Positions 4,779 to 12,790 of a stretch of DNA of 14,121 nucleotides are shown here, one piece after another. The notes below the pieces were generated by a model. It ran no database searches. It had not been told where the DNA came from and saw only the letters and a program-made list of their open reading frames with translations. The translations under genes and the position numbers were made by a program. This DNA is from Nitrospirota bacterium (lineage in GTDB: Bacteria > Nitrospirota_A > Leptospirillia > Leptospirillales > Leptospirillaceae), in NCBI GenBank assembly GCA_021838585.1, contig JAKCDE010000028.1, positions 1-14,121 of the forward strand, in the 5' to 3' direction. Position 1 is the first letter of the stretch; each line of letters starts with the position of its first letter.

Positions 4779-5021
4779 TCAATGATATTTTTCCTCGAGA
4801 GTCTTTCGATGATCCGTTTCGTCCACTTCGGATCCACGAAGAATTCCGATAAGGCTTTTTGTCAGGGGCGGAATATCCTCATTAACCCCGGACTTCTCCT
4901 GATCCATAAGGGAAAAATACTCCGAAACAACTTGGGACAAAGATTTTCCATTGTCACGAGCGTGTTTCTTTGCCTTTTTGATCAATGTCTCTTCCATCCG
5001 AAGTGTCAATTTTGTTGGCAT
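4779..5021 (-). CDS. Antitoxin-like DUF6364 family protein (ribbon-helix-helix type)
   Basis: An 80-residue protein beginning MPTKLTLRMEETLIKKAKK, the amphipathic beta strand and helix typical of the DUF6364 antitoxin-like family, followed by GKSLSQVVSEYF, which fits the second helix of a ribbon-helix-helix fold. Such proteins bind DNA as dimers, repress their own promoter and neutralise a PIN-domain RNase encoded just downstream. A very strong site GGGAGAGG precedes the ATG. The next 100 bases downstream hold no recognisable PIN gene, so this looks like an orphan antitoxin. Base composition stands out: about 45% GC over 4801-4980 by direct count, while flanking genes are near 60-70%. This suggests acquisition by transfer. 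The C-terminal half (45-80) is charged and probably the toxin-binding segment. Confidence 0.75.
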   Translation of the reverse strand: MPTKLTLRMEETLIKKAKKHARDNGKSLSQVVSEYFSLMDQEKSGVNEDIPPLTKSLIGILRGSEVDETDHRKTLEEKYH

Positions 5022-5580: not shown

Positions 5581-7272
5581 TTAAAGACGGAATCGGTCGA
5601 TTTCCCTGTCGAGCTCCTTCACCACCTTCAGGATCTCTCCCAGATGGCGCTCCTCCAGAGGCTTCTGGCCCATCTGTCCGCGAAAGTCCTCCGCCAGGGA
5701 GTCGAGAATCGCCTGGATCTTCAGAATGGCCTCGGTCTCGGTGCGGATCCGCTCTGCCATCCCCTCCCATTGCAGAGCTACCCGGGAGAGAGCCTCCTGG
5801 AAAAGCGTCCAGGTCTCCTGAAATCCCTCAAGGCCCCGGTCGGCCGTCTCCAGCCCCTCGGCCCTTCCGGAAAGGGAAGCCGCGACATGGTCGAGCCGGC
5901 CGTTCAGTTCCGAGAGTTCGTTCCCGATGGCCCCGAGGGCCGTCTCGGTCTTTCGGGAGAGGTCGGCGACCGTGTCGGCCACGATCCGGAATGTCCGGCC
6001 TCCGGCACCGGCATGGGAGGCCTCGATCGCCGCGTTCATCCCCGTGAGATGCAGCTCTCTGGCGATCTCGTTGATGGTGGCGAAGGCCTGGGCGAGGCTG
6101 CGGCGCATCTTTTCGAGCCCTTCCCCCTCCCCGACCAGACTTCCGGAGAGGCTGCGGGCCTCCCGGACGGAGTCCCGGACCGACTGGGTCACCTGACCAA
6201 TCTTCCGGGACTTCTCCGAAAACCAGGAAAAGCTCCGGGCCACCTCGTTCTCGGAGAGACCGGACTTGCCGCTCAGAAGATCCCGGACCCGGAGCCTGAG
6301 CTCGTCTAAAGCCAGGCGGACCTCTTCCTCTTTGCGGTAGCGCCGCTCGTGATCCCGGTCCAGAAGCTCGGCATGGGCCTCGATCCACCGGACCCTGTCG
6401 GAAACCTCCCCCATCCACCCCCGGAAGAGATCCACGAACCGGTTCAGAAAATAGACCAGCCTCCCCAGCTCGTCGTCGCGCGTACGGGGAAAGGAGAGCC
6501 GCAGGTCGGGGTTGTCCGGCCCCACCATGGCGATGGCCCGGGAGAGTCCGTCGAGGGGACGGACCAGAGAGCGACGGATCAGGAGGATCACCACCAGCAC
6601 CAGCGTTTCGAGGATTCCCGAAAACATCCAGAAGCGGGCCCACCGACCGGCCCGCATTTCCCGGGCGAAGGCCGTCCCGTCGGAGTAGAGGACAAGGGTT
6701 CCCAGTCGCTTCCCGCCCTGCGGACAGGAGGGACAGGAGGCATCGCTGGAGAGGGGAAGGCGCACGAGAAAAACCCGCCTCCCCGACCGAGATCGTCCCT
6801 CCAGGAACCCCTTTCCCGGCCTGTCCGAGAGGAGGCGGGAGACGGAGACCGGAAGCTCCGGACCCGAGGAGAGGAGAACGCTCTGCCCGTCCGTTCCCAG
6901 AAGGACCGCTTCGTCGGGAGAGGACTGGCGAATCGTCCTGAAAAGGGCCTGCGCCCCCGGAAGATCGTCCTTCTCGAGGAGACGGACGAGGGAGGCCATC
7001 AGAACGTCCGCCTCAGCAGAAAGCCTCCGGTCGATGGAGCGGACAGCCTCCCGATTCTCCTGGCGGTCGATCTGGTAGGCCAACACGGAAAAGCCCACGG
7101 AAAGGGCCAGAAAGAGCCAGAGAAAGAAGCGGGTCGTGACCTTCCGCGTCCAGGGAACGGGGGCCATCGCAAAGAGTGGAGGAGCCGGGTCCCTTTCTGT
7201 CCTCCCCCGCCCCGGGAGATCGGAGCTGGAACGCTCGCCGGGAGTCTTCAGAATTTCGGGTTGCGAAGCCAC
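5581..7272 (-). CDS. MCP-like membrane signal transducer with HAMP domain
   Basis: A 563-residue protein. It has a cytoplasmic lead (1-47), membrane helix 1 (about 48-66), a periplasmic sensor region (67-213), helix 2 (about 214-232), a HAMP-like region (233-285), then a long coiled-coil cytoplasmic part. The segment INEIARELHLTGMNAAIEAS (400-419) followed by AGAGGRTFRIVAD matches the chemoreceptor hairpin that contacts CheA and CheW. The sensor carries Cys180-Pro-Ser-Cys183, resembling a CxxCH haem site but with Pro after the second Cys. The C-terminal half is shorter than in classic MCPs and shows no clear methylation sites or CheR-binding pentapeptide. A GTG start is chosen because GGGAG lies 8 bases upstream; the later ATG (residue 36) has no such site. 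It lies between lgt and the Rrf2 gene in a tight operon, with no other chemotaxis genes nearby. Confidence 0.8.
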   Translation of the reverse strand: MASQPEILKTPGERSSSDLPGRGRTERDPAPPLFAMAPVPWTRKVTTRFFLWLFLALSVGFSVLAYQIDRQENREAVRSIDRRLSAEADVLMASLVRLLEKDDLPGAQALFRTIRQSSPDEAVLLGTDGQSVLLSSGPELPVSVSRLLSDRPGKGFLEGRSRSGRRVFLVRLPLSSDASCPSCPQGGKRLGTLVLYSDGTAFAREMRAGRWARFWMFSGILETLVLVVILLIRRSLVRPLDGLSRAIAMVGPDNPDLRLSFPRTRDDELGRLVYFLNRFVDLFRGWMGEVSDRVRWIEAHAELLDRDHERRYRKEEEVRLALDELRLRVRDLLSGKSGLSENEVARSFSWFSEKSRKIGQVTQSVRDSVREARSLSGSLVGEGEGLEKMRRSLAQAFATINEIARELHLTGMNAAIEASHAGAGGRTFRIVADTVADLSRKTETALGAIGNELSELNGRLDHVAASLSGRAEGLETADRGLEGFQETWTLFQEALSRVALQWEGMAERIRTETEAILKIQAILDSLAEDFRGQMGQKPLEERHLGEILKVVKELDREIDRFRL

Positions 7273-9442: not shown

Positions 9443-9471
9443 AAAAAAGGGGAGGTCGCCCTCCCCTTTTT
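9443..9471. terminator. Bidirectional rho-independent terminator
   Basis: AAAAAGGGGAGG and CCTCCCCTTTTT form a perfect 12-bp stem around a TCGC tetraloop, with A-rich and T-rich flanks so that each strand ends in a U tract. It lies between nth (plus) and the redox fusion gene (minus), which converge here, and can end both transcripts. The rest of the spacer (9267-9495) shows no gene or other signal. Confidence 0.92.
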
Positions 9472-9495: not shown

Positions 9496-12400
9496 TCAGC
9501 CAGGTACGGCCTGGGTCCGGTGTTCGAAGCCCGTCACCGTGTTGAAGTGGATGAAGACGGGGGCCTCCGGATTCTCCTGACGCTCGATGCGCTCGGCGGG
9601 ATCCACACGTCCCTCGAGCTCGCACCGGATGCAACGGGTCGACTCGATCCAGGCATCCTGAACGGTGAATCCGGTCTCAACCTCGGCAAAACCCTGTCGT
9701 GCCGGCAGCGGAAGCGCCGGCATTGGAACCCTGTGAACATCCCCCAGAACAAAGGCGTCGTTGTCCACCTTCGGAAAATGGAAGGGGAAGGTCCGGTCGG
9801 GGTTTCCCTTGAGATAGCGGTCGATGAAGACCGCGCACTGCTCTCCGTCCCGGATGGAGTGAATGACGTCGAGCGGTCCGGTCATGTTGTCGCCACCGGC
9901 GAAGACGGCCGGCCGGCTTTCGCTCATGAGAGTGTCGGGGTCGACCTTCACCGTTCCCCACTTGTGGAACCCGATTCCGTTCTTCTCGAAAACGGTGGTG
10001 TCCATCGTCTGGCCGATGGCGGCCACGACGGTGTCGACGGGAACGGATTCGATCTGTCCCTTGACCGCCACGGGCTTTCTCCGGCCGCTGTTGTCAAACT
10101 CCCGGGAGAGGGTGTTGACCTGGAAGTCGATCACCGTCTCGGTCGAGCCGTCCTCGTTGGCGCGGTCCCGAATCTCGAGCGGCGCCAGGAGGAAGCGGAA
10201 TTCGATCCCTTCGTGTTCGGCCTCCTGGACCTCGAACTCGTGGGCGGGCATCTCTTCCCGGGTCCGGCGGTAGAAGACCGTCACCTTTTCCGCACCCAGT
10301 CGGATGGCGGAACGGGCCACGTCGATCGCCACATTGCCCCCTCCGATCACCGCCAGCCTCTTTCCGACCTGGACCGGCTCGTTGGTCAGGGCCTTTCTGA
10401 GGAATTCGATCCCGTTCTGGACCACCGGATGATCCTCTCCCTTCACCCCCATCTTCTGGGGCTTGTGGGCGCCGATTCCCAGGAAAGCGGCATCGTAGCC
10501 CTCCTTGAAGAGATCTTCCAGCGAAAAGTCCCGGCCCAGGGCGGTATTGGTCCTGAAGGTCACGGGAAGCCCATCGAAGATTCCGAGCTCCCAGTTGAGA
10601 AGCTCGCGCGGGAGACGATAGGCCGGGATCCCCACCGCCAGCATGCCGCCGATCACATTGTACTGCTCGAAGACGGTCACCTTGTACCCCATGCGCCCGA
10701 GATAGAAGGCGCAGGTGAGGCCGGCCGGTCCCGACCCGATGATGGCGACCTTCTTGTCGAGATCGGCCGCCGGCTCGTAATGCGGGCGAATGCCCTGGTT
10801 GTATTCCCAGTCGTAGGCGAAGCGCTTGAGCCCGTTGATCGCGATCGGCTCGTCGAGATCGCCGCGCCGGCAGGGACCTTCGCAGGGGCGATAGCAGGTC
10901 CGGCTGATAATTCCCGGGAAGGGAAGTCGCTCCCGGATCGTCTCCAGGGCCTCCTTGAATTCGCCGCGGAAGATCTGGGTGATGTAGCGCGGGATGTCGA
11001 TTCCCACCGGGCATTCATGCTGGCAGGGAGCGTAGACGATTTCCTTGCAGGACTGGGAGACGCACTTTCTCCGCTTGATGTGGTCCTCGTATTCCGCCCG
11101 GAAATACCGGATGGTCGACAGGACCGGATTGGGGGCGGCCTGTCCCAGTCCGCACAGGGAGTTGGCCTTCACATAGGTCGAGAGGTTCACGAGGTCGTCC
11201 AGATCCTTCATCTCTCCGCGACCTTCGCTGATCCGCTCGATCATGTCCAGCATGACCTTCGTTCCGTCGCGGCAGGGAGTGCACTCCCCGCATGACTCGT
11301 CCTTCGTGAAGGTCATGAAGTACTTGGCCGTGTCGACGATGCAGTTCGCCTCGTCGAGAACGATAATGCCGCCCGATCCCATGATCGCCCCCGCGGAAAT
11401 CAGGGATTCGAAGTCGATCGGGGTCTCGATAAGACTGCCCGGGATGCAGCCGCCCGAAGGGCCGCCCAGCTGGGCGGCCTTGAACTTCTTCGTGCCGCTC
11501 ATGCCGCCTGCGATTTCGTAAACGATTTCCTTGAGGGTCGTTCCGGCGGCCACCTCGATCAGGCCGGTCCTCTTGATTTTTCCCGTCAGGGCGAAGGTCT
11601 TCGTTCCCTTGGTCTTCTCGGTTCCGAAAGAGGCGTACCACTCGGCCCCGCCAAGGATGATGTGTGGAACATTGGCCAGGGTCTCGACGTTATTGATGAC
11701 GGTAGGGTGGCCCCAGACGCCCTTCTGGGCCGGGAAAGGCGGTTTGGGCCACGGCATGCCGCGGTCCCCCATCAGGGAGGCCAGAAGAGCGGTCTCCTCT
11801 CCGCACACGTAAGCCCCGGCTCCCTCCTTGACCTCAATGTCGAAGCTCAACGCCGTCCCGAAGATGTTTTTCCCCAGGAACCCCCGCTCCCTAGCCTGTC
11901 CGATCGCCCGATTCAGAAGCTTGATGGCGTGGGGATATTCGGCGCGGCAATAGATGTACCCCTTCTGGGCGTGTCCGATGGCGAAGGCGGCGATGGTCAT
12001 TCCCTCGAGAACGGAATGGGGGTCCCCCTCCAGAACCGATCGGTCCATGAAGGCTCCGGGGTCTCCCTCGTCGGCATTGCAGACGACGTACTTTTCGTCC
12101 CCCTGGGACTGATAGGTGAACTTCCACTTGAGGCCCGTCGGGAAACCGGCTCCGCCTCTTCCCCGCAGACCGGACTGTATCATGACCTCGACCACCTGCT
12201 CGGGGGTCATCGTCTTGAGGACCTTTTCCAGCGCCTTGTACCCGTTCGTTGCCAGGTAGTCCTCGATCGAGGAGGGATCGATCACCCCGCAGCGGCGGCT
12301 GACGATCTTGTTCTGCTTCCGGAAATAATCCGTGTCGTTGAAGGCGGAAAGCCCCTCAAAGGCCGGAACTCCATCTTCCGTCGACTGGCCGAAAGCCAGA

Positions 12401-12672
12401 TCGGGGAAGATGGTCCGGTCGACAAAATGCGCCTTCAGGATCTTCTCGACCGATTCGACGGTGACCTGGTGGTAGGTAACCCGGGGGCGGCCCGCCACCT
12501 GAACATCAAGAAGCGGTTCATTGTGGCACATGCCGACGCAGCCGGTGGGATGGACGGTCACGGGGTAACCATTTTCGGCCACAAGCCGCACGACCTCGTC
12601 GTGGATTTTCCGGGCGCCGCTCGCCAGCCCGCAGGTGGCCATCCCGATATAGATGGAAGAGGACTTGTCCAT
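9496..12672 (-). CDS. NuoF-GltD fusion flavoprotein, candidate NADH/NADPH transhydrogenase
   Basis: A 1058-residue multidomain redox enzyme. Order: thioredoxin-like ferredoxin domain (about 5-95; Cys14, Cys45 and Cys49 in TGCVGMC); NuoF-like NADH/FMN domain with the glycine-rich GRGGAGFPTGLKW (171-183) and GAGAYVCGEET (284-294); SLBB region (about 360-415); NuoF 4Fe-4S site CGECTPC (461-467) plus Cys507. Then a GltD/NfnB-like half: cysteines 550, 554, 593, 597 and 601 for Fe-S clusters, FAD motif GSGPAG (646-651), NADPH motif GGGNVA (777-782), AIGQ (885-888), and a C-terminal CIRC (1014-1017). Separately these modules oxidise NADH (complex I, HydB, FdsB) and use NADPH (glutamate synthase small subunit, NfnB). 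One chain with both suggests electron transfer between the two pools, possibly with ferredoxin as third partner; that is inference. ATG 12672 (GAAAGG, 7-base spacer) is preferred over ATG 12696, which has no ribosome site and overlaps the small ORF upstream. Confidence 0.88.
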   Translation of the reverse strand: MDKSSSIYIGMATCGLASGARKIHDEVVRLVAENGYPVTVHPTGCVGMCHNEPLLDVQVAGRPRVTYHQVTVESVEKILKAHFVDRTIFPDLAFGQSTEDGVPAFEGLSAFNDTDYFRKQNKIVSRRCGVIDPSSIEDYLATNGYKALEKVLKTMTPEQVVEVMIQSGLRGRGGAGFPTGLKWKFTYQSQGDEKYVVCNADEGDPGAFMDRSVLEGDPHSVLEGMTIAAFAIGHAQKGYIYCRAEYPHAIKLLNRAIGQARERGFLGKNIFGTALSFDIEVKEGAGAYVCGEETALLASLMGDRGMPWPKPPFPAQKGVWGHPTVINNVETLANVPHIILGGAEWYASFGTEKTKGTKTFALTGKIKRTGLIEVAAGTTLKEIVYEIAGGMSGTKKFKAAQLGGPSGGCIPGSLIETPIDFESLISAGAIMGSGGIIVLDEANCIVDTAKYFMTFTKDESCGECTPCRDGTKVMLDMIERISEGRGEMKDLDDLVNLSTYVKANSLCGLGQAAPNPVLSTIRYFRAEYEDHIKRRKCVSQSCKEIVYAPCQHECPVGIDIPRYITQIFRGEFKEALETIRERLPFPGIISRTCYRPCEGPCRRGDLDEPIAINGLKRFAYDWEYNQGIRPHYEPAADLDKKVAIIGSGPAGLTCAFYLGRMGYKVTVFEQYNVIGGMLAVGIPAYRLPRELLNWELGIFDGLPVTFRTNTALGRDFSLEDLFKEGYDAAFLGIGAHKPQKMGVKGEDHPVVQNGIEFLRKALTNEPVQVGKRLAVIGGGNVAIDVARSAIRLGAEKVTVFYRRTREEMPAHEFEVQEAEHEGIEFRFLLAPLEIRDRANEDGSTETVIDFQVNTLSREFDNSGRRKPVAVKGQIESVPVDTVVAAIGQTMDTTVFEKNGIGFHKWGTVKVDPDTLMSESRPAVFAGGDNMTGPLDVIHSIRDGEQCAVFIDRYLKGNPDRTFPFHFPKVDNDAFVLGDVHRVPMPALPLPARQGFAEVETGFTVQDAWIESTRCIRCELEGRVDPAERIERQENPEAPVFIHFNTVTGFEHRTQAVPG

Positions 12673-12673
12673 G

Positions 12674-12790
12674 TCAGAGCCTTTCTTTGGGGTCATTGAC
12701 GGAACGGACGGAGACCGCGTCCCGGGTCCTGATGTGAGGCATGGAGTCGGTATGAATTCGAGCTTTCAGAAGTGGCAGAAGAAACATCAT
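12674..12790 (-). CDS. Small ORF directly upstream of and coupled to the redox fusion gene
   Basis: A 38-codon frame starting with tandem ATG codons (MMFLLPLLKARIHTDS...) and ending TGA one base before the ATG of the fusion gene (TGACATGG). AGGAGG lies 6 bases before the first ATG, as good a ribosome site as any in the window. The peptide has a short hydrophobic start and a basic remainder ending DPKERL. I recognise no family and no Cys-based motif. It could be a real small subunit, a leader peptide that loads ribosomes onto the fusion message, or a remnant of a longer gene. The frame is closed upstream by a TGA near 12852, so there is no longer ancestor in frame here. Confidence 0.5.
   Translation of the reverse strand: MMFLLPLLKARIHTDSMPHIRTRDAVSVRSVNDPKERL

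Follow-up and report, generated by a model that had tools for sequence, protein, structure and literature searches.

The stretch of 14,121 nucleotides analyzed here (hereafter, the window), positions 1 to 14,121 of contig JAKCDE010000028.1 from a Nitrospirota bacterium of the family Leptospirillaceae (assembly GCA_021838585.1), carries on its minus strand a long gene that joins a NuoF-type FMN/NADH module to a GltD-type FAD/NADPH module in a single chain. The open reading frame (ORF) at 9496-12696 (1066 aa) is open throughout, confirming the uninterrupted frame of an earlier description made from the letters alone (the sequence-only reading), and the ATG at 12672 chosen there is the likelier start, giving a protein of 1058 aa. 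In the six closest loci that hold the start, an ATG aligns with 12672 and is preceded on its 5' side by a GAAAGG/GGAAG-like stretch; in more distant loci, another codon occupies this position and an ATG follows one codon later. Residue numbers of the fusion are counted from 12696, not from the ATG at 12672. The features of the gene are as follows.

9496..12672, minus strand: NuoF-GltD fusion gene, 1058 aa; the ORF reaches 12696 (1066 aa), start kept in the six closest loci
12421..12663, minus strand: N-terminal thioredoxin-like domain of the StnB type, ~ residues 12-92, with C22, C53 and C57; aligned with the first residues of the StnB and NfnB chains
11077..12276, minus strand: NuoF module, residues 141-540 (FMN/NADH domain, SLBB-like stretch, 4Fe-4S region); Pfam and NCBIfam
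11152..11292, minus strand: cysteines of the NuoF [4Fe-4S] cluster (B1 in StnB), C469, C472, C475 and C515; in 64/64 fusions, cluster assigned by homology
11047..11082, minus strand: linker H539...C545...C550, probable Zn site as in the StnB linker, running into the GltD module; in 64/64 fusions
10792..11055, minus strand: Fer4_20 region with C558, C562, C601, C605, C609 and K624 (aligned with StnC K170); Pfam and alignment
9850..10755, minus strand: GltD-type FAD/NADPH module, residues 648-949, with GSGPAG at 654, GGGNVA at 785 and YRR at 809-811; Pfam and alignment
9622..9699, minus strand: C-terminal cysteine segment, ~ residues 1000-1025, with C1022 and C1025; aligns with the N-terminus of free-standing NfnB/GltD-type chains
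9444..9470, minus strand: hairpin AAAAGGGGAGG-GCGA-CCTCCCCTTTT after the stop codon, a possible terminator; read directly from the sequence

The Pfam matches in the fusion are Complex1_51K (residues 174-345), NADH_4Fe-4S (455-539), Fer4_20 (548-635) and Pyr_redox_2 (648-949), with a weak SLBB match at 368-416 (22.9 bits, cut-off 27); together with NCBIfam, they delineate the NuoF module, the Fer4_20 region that follows it and the GltD-type module for FAD and NADPH. Among the NuoF models, the fusion scored 498 of 559 bits with TIGR01959, 391 of 389 with NF010120 and 381 of 749 with NF008436, and it departs from the nearly invariant columns of other NuoF-like rows at 3 positions, the same number as the complex I paralogue discussed below. 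At least 92% of the query was covered by 119 of the 120 proteins listed. We aligned 64 fusions, namely, that of the window, 61 chosen from these 120 proteins and two from the Nitrospirota genome G218, and all 64 keep C469, C472, C475, C515, H539, C545 and C550, as well as C558, C562, C601, C605, C609, K624, C1022, C1025 and Y809-R810-R811. The domains, their order and the completeness of both modules agree with the sequence-only reading. Presumably, the GltD-module cysteines are the ligands of two clusters, and the YRR motif signifies a preference for NADPH.

The N-terminal domain, previously considered ferredoxin-like, is thioredoxin-like instead: the first ~ 90 residues align with the thioredoxin-like N-termini of two chains, StnB and Thermococcus NfnB, and contain three cysteines as in StnB, with C22 one column off the position that holds a cysteine in 24 of the 64 aligned fusions. 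As reported in PMC7483475, glycine replaces two of the four usual cysteines of this domain in StnB. For the remaining positions, PMC10482914 reports Zn in the StnB linker and a lysine, K170, which is strictly conserved in StnC and replaced by glutamate in NfnB, the FAD of StnC being non-bifurcating. By analogy, H539, C545 and C550 are probable Zn ligands. K624 of the fusion aligns with K170 (the numbering was counted from the alignment, in which C114 lands where PMC10482914 places it), and I568 is the counterpart of C114. The segment around residues 1000-1025 yields weak second alignments to 4ylf_B (12-43) and 5jca_L (8-48) and is also covered by the alignment with StnC; judging from these alignments, part of the GltD cluster motif is relocated to the C-terminus of the fusion.

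Among solved structures, the StnB, StnC, NfnB and NfnA chains are nearest to the two halves, and the comparison with StnB and StnC drawn in the sequence-only reading holds, down to the lysine of StnC. An E-value of 2.9e-198 against a solved chain, the retention of the cysteines in 64/64 proteins and the low ratio of nonsynonymous to synonymous substitution rates (dN/dS) indicate that the fusion is not a product of chance. In five pairs, dN/dS was 0.016-0.071, with dS above 2, that is, near saturation, in two of the five, and a sixth pair was saturated; the fusion is under purifying selection. The AlphaFold model of the fusion has a mean predicted local distance difference test score (pLDDT) of 84.3 and a predicted template modeling score (pTM) of 0.72.

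We compared 395 Nitrospirota genomes, with a Leptospirillum-family sample of 21 genomes; because scoring took in just the top two candidates of each genome and the counts come from the matches listed, the numbers of fusions and NuoF proteins in this family and in Bacillota are lower bounds. At least 18 of the 21 genomes (one in part) encode a 617-aa-type protein that is 65-67% identical to residues 14-563 of the fusion and ends, as read from its sequence, in a two-cluster ferredoxin domain. In 5/5 stretches, this NuoF belongs to a nuo cluster, with NuoE and NuoG next to it, and other Nitrospirota NuoF relatives also belong to nuo clusters (4/4 stretches, of which L015 and L090 are the same place). 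On the single contig of genome G019, ~ 650 kb separate the fusion (C1:1,072,901) from this NuoF (C1:1,720,761); in the window's own genome, which is 82% complete, the complex I paralogue and its NuoE were both missing.

The phylogeny of both halves that had been suggested for the fusion placed the NuoF half and failed to place the GltD half. In the second NuoF tree, which omits the long-branched P0088, the fusion groups with the family's own NuoF (support 90/81) and, together with it, with other Nitrospirota complex I NuoF (100/99), the latter represented by six rows that are three sequences, each entered twice; all trees use samples of fusions. Grouping of the NuoF half with the nearest other fusions (P0009 type) was rejected (61 log units, approximately unbiased test p-AU 4.5e-5), as was grouping with all fusions of the tree (180 log units, p-AU 8e-66). 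A clade of family and other Nitrospirota NuoF without the fusion was not rejected (p-AU 0.058); whichever topology applies, the fusion is placed among unfused complex I NuoF. The GltD half sits on a long stem, and its join with P0058 was flagged as long branches meeting. Because this half is not placeable, and a tree that joins it to those fusions that come closest in the NuoF tree was not rejected (p-AU 0.15), the gene may be an imported fusion in which the NuoF half was replaced by the resident NuoF. Other GltD-like proteins of the family, with 29-34% identity, were set aside as donors of the GltD half.

The fusion is present in at least 13 of the 21 family genomes, one of these partial. Among the matches listed for the 395 Nitrospirota genomes, full-length fusions occur in 12 family genomes and G218, and a partial one in the thirteenth family genome; the named relatives are Leptospirillum sp. 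and metagenome-assembled genomes of Nitrospirae. For the family neighborhoods, 12 genomes supplied 13 stretches, of which four are shorter than 6.2 kb. The nth gene faces the fusion in 12 of the 13, dksA and lgt follow it in 10 (the remaining stretches are short), and an MscS-like gene precedes it in five and in the window. In tblastn searches, no NuoE-, FdhA- or [FeFe] HydA-like match was detected in these 13 stretches, and ten upstream ORFs from three of them include no redox family (nine lack a Pfam match and one is a TPR protein). The Leptospirillum-family fusion seems to stand alone, with no hydrogenase, formate dehydrogenase or NuoE-like neighbor in these stretches. A promoter scan found no promoter, and a terminator scan found 3 terminator-like sites compared to 4.1 in shuffled sequences, the hairpin at 9444..9470 not being among the sites listed.

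Elsewhere in the window, a small ORF at 4779-5021, with matches in L012 and L014, resembles, as we assume, a ribbon-helix-helix antitoxin, and a protein of the methyl-accepting chemotaxis type, which has a weak match to HAMP and is encoded at 5581-7272, adjoins lgt.

We propose, with a probability of about 0.5, that the fusion arose by duplication of the complex I nuoF and now serves as a soluble NADH:NADP+ oxidoreductase; NADH/NADPH exchange, the role suggested in the sequence-only reading, remains the leading one. A copy of the family's own complex I nuoF would have lost its C-terminal two-cluster ferredoxin domain and gained an StnC-like GltD module. NADH would then reduce FMN in the NuoF part, single electrons would travel from there to FAD across the iron-sulfur clusters in both parts, NuoF and GltD, and this FAD, of the non-bifurcating StnC kind, would reduce NADP+. 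In an iron oxidizer that makes NADH by reverse electron flow, the fusion could feed NADPH to biosynthesis. The electron path, its direction, the substrates and the lack of ferredoxin coupling are predictions. The proposal as a whole draws on the kinship of the NuoF half, the retention of its nearly invariant columns, the StnC lysine at K624, the Stn and Nfn chains as nearest solved structures, the lack of PntB and of SthA over the cut-off, and the lack of NuoE-like, hydrogenase and formate dehydrogenase neighbors in the 13 stretches. PntB was found in 0 of the 21 family genomes, and no match exceeded the cut-off of the SthA model, with weaker relatives in all 21; an NfnA-type PF10418 domain is present in 6 of the 21. 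The ferredoxin coupling previously entertained for the fusion is weakened: the GltD module takes the place of the two-cluster ferredoxin domain of StnB and HydB, and no NuoE-like gene is near.

Several observations weigh against this proposal. The transfer of electrons from NADH to NADP+ is uphill in cells, according to PMC10482914, so that a high NADH/NAD+ ratio or a partner would be needed, and the path from FMN to the GltD clusters is hypothetical without NuoE. The search for NADPH sources covered PntB, SthA and PF10418, and several family stretches are short (3.7-6.1 kb). Furthermore, in 8 of the 21 family genomes (64-96% complete), there is no fusion among the matches listed, and one of these, G037 (96% complete), also lacks PntB, SthA over the cut-off and PF10418; therefore, the role of the fusion is dispensable.

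If the proposed NADH:NADP+ oxidoreductase activity is real, a solitary fusion derived from complex I would be a simple route to NADPH in a family without PntB and without SthA over the cut-off, and would provide a single polypeptide for testing electron exchange between a NuoF flavin and a GltD flavin without ferredoxin. In passages of PMC5772234 and PMC5418355, Leptospirillum is described as generating NAD(P)H by reverse electron flow via bc1 and NADH dehydrogenase; these passages do not name the NADPH-making enzyme. Two other GltD-like proteins are encoded in G019. One (613 aa, L177, 6926-10214) has extra 4Fe-4S motifs and is encoded directly upstream of a Rieske protein and cytochrome b, a locus that perhaps specifies a bc-type complex that is linked to NAD(P)H and operates in reverse electron flow; the gene for the other (570 aa, with a 4Fe-4S dicluster; L178, 5561-10105) adjoins those of a pyruvate/2-oxoacid:ferredoxin oxidoreductase.

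Alternatively, the fusion might be an alternative NADH module of complex I that borrows NuoE (and NuoG) and replaces NuoF, such that the proton-driven complex could make NADPH as well as NADH. The close kinship of the NuoF half with complex I NuoF, the retention of the nearly invariant columns and the presence of that NuoF across most of the family are consistent with this possibility, which we nevertheless regard as unlikely, given that NuoE is missing from the 13 stretches, the fusion and NuoF are far apart in G019, and the GltD part may clash with docking. A more specific version, in which the fusion is an exchangeable input module that takes the position of the ferredoxin-type NuoF on NuoE/NuoG and proton-driven reverse flow reduces NADP+ directly, appears doubtful; if true, swapping one subunit would switch one membrane machine between ferredoxin/NADH and NADPH output.

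Similarly doubtful is an Stn-like, ferredoxin-bifurcating transhydrogenase with NuoE encoded elsewhere and ferredoxin bound at a new site. The StnB-type N-terminal domain and the NuoF cluster and linker residues are retained, and, in PMC5418355, L. ferriphilum genomes are described as encoding the reductive tricarboxylic acid cycle and ferredoxin oxidoreductases, but the fusion has no two-cluster ferredoxin domain, and the family yielded no dedicated NuoE gene. Among the PF01257 matches in the family, the strong ones are NuoE-sized frames (next to NuoF wherever positions were compared) and NuoEF-type frames of 617-864 aa, and the weak ones lie in short frames and the fusion itself. In the window's own genome, a NuoE-NuoF single chain of 766 aa (contig C83, L175, 3333-5633) has an NfeD-like gene nearby; within this 14 kb locus, none of the query proteins NuoB, D, G, H, J and L has a match.

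A role as a small-subunit-type partner of GltB in glutamate synthase is quite improbable. GltB-like matches are present in 20 of the 21 family genomes (only of a weak kind in one), and the single GltB locus opened (L179) lacks a neighbor matching the fusion. However, the fusion scored below the cut-offs of the glutamate synthase small-subunit models (187 of 448, 284 of 483 and 337 of 472 bits); the fusion and GltB-like genes are 45-90 kb apart where they share a contig (G010, G028, G019), and eight genomes with GltB-like matches or other GltD-like proteins have no fusion among the matches listed.

The survey of occurrence and neighbors shows that NuoF-GltD fusions are not rare; they are common elsewhere and not unique to the Leptospirillum family. 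A sample of 299 genomes was drawn from the phylum to which G395 belongs (this genome holds a Thermacetogenium locus and is taken as Bacillota), and at least 45 of them match nearly the full length of the fusion P0053. Loci were opened in 15 of these 45; a NuoE-like gene was found in 15/15 and a hydrogenase or formate dehydrogenase gene in 14/15, the contig of L157 ending within the fusion. Genome G218 encodes two fusions, one with FdhA and one with [FeFe] hydrogenase, both accompanied by NuoE-like genes, bringing the loci opened outside the family to 17, with NuoE-like genes in 17/17 and hydrogenase or formate dehydrogenase in 16/17. Despite these associations, it is highly improbable that the family fusion is a stray subunit of hydrogenase or formate dehydrogenase, because neither is found in the 13 family stretches (the search covering the stretches alone) and the NuoF half, which groups with complex I NuoF, lies outside the group of those fusions, contrary to the orthology to a formate dehydrogenase subunit that the sequence-only reading had named as a possible refutation.

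In the Bacillota loci (L152-L166), a HydB-like subunit ends in an NADPH module, and these loci are predicted NADH/NADPH hydrogenases. Seven of the 15 have a short second ORF upstream that matches the NuoF query, and L161 contains two fusions in one cluster, one by formate dehydrogenase and the other by [FeFe] hydrogenase. The fusions do not conform to the HydDB rule for group A2, by which the downstream protein contains GltD but lacks NuoF.

Among known systems, the closest kin of the NuoF half is the NuoF of Nuo-Bfu, as Schut et al. (2022) named the kind of complex I with a ferredoxin domain, with Nitrospirae among its bearers; the family's own NuoF copy would belong to this kind. The Nuo-Bfu NuoF ends in a two-cluster ferredoxin domain and sits in a nuo cluster, whereas the fusion does neither. 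In the same paper (PMC9304861), BfuB is defined by IPR011538, IPR019554, IPR019575 and IPR017896, the last being the 4Fe-4S ferredoxin domain. With Pfam as a proxy for InterPro, no ferredoxin domain is among the matches of the fusion, which therefore falls outside this definition; also, the 13 stretches contain no BfuC (NuoE-like) and no BfuA of the FdhA- or [FeFe] HydA-like kinds, the two that were searched for. The main text of that paper uses neither "fused" nor "fusion". In the literature on the fusion and Leptospirillum, we found no description of the family protein, but subscription papers were mostly not covered, and absence from print is not claimed.

The GltD module of the fusion resembles NfnB of NfnAB; by contrast, the NAD site is of the NuoF type rather than of NfnA, and a lysine replaces the glutamate of NfnB near the FAD cluster. 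A PF10418 match, the mark of an NfnA partner, is missing in the window's own genome, G019 and G010 (99% complete). With Stn (StnABC of Sporomusa ovata, NfnABC of Thermococcus sibiricus and Caldicellulosiruptor saccharolyticus), the fusion shares the StnB-like NuoF module, the N-terminal domain and an StnC-like GltD module with the lysine of K170, and it possesses the core of a NuoF-like StnB, that is, an NADH/FMN site and a 4Fe-4S cluster. It differs in being one chain, in carrying I568 in place of C114, in lacking the NuoG-like part of StnC (no Pfam match) and an adjacent StnA, and in that the GltD module starts straight after the linker, where StnB continues into its two-cluster ferredoxin domain. 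Finally, the hydrogenase- and formate dehydrogenase-linked fusions of Bacillota and G218 differ from the family fusion in having NuoE-like and catalytic genes alongside and NuoF halves outside the clade of the family's NuoF, but have the same domain order and conserved cysteines; the fusion also draws attention to the many hydrogenase loci that have an NADPH module built in, a single-chain arrangement undescribed in the portions of the literature examined.

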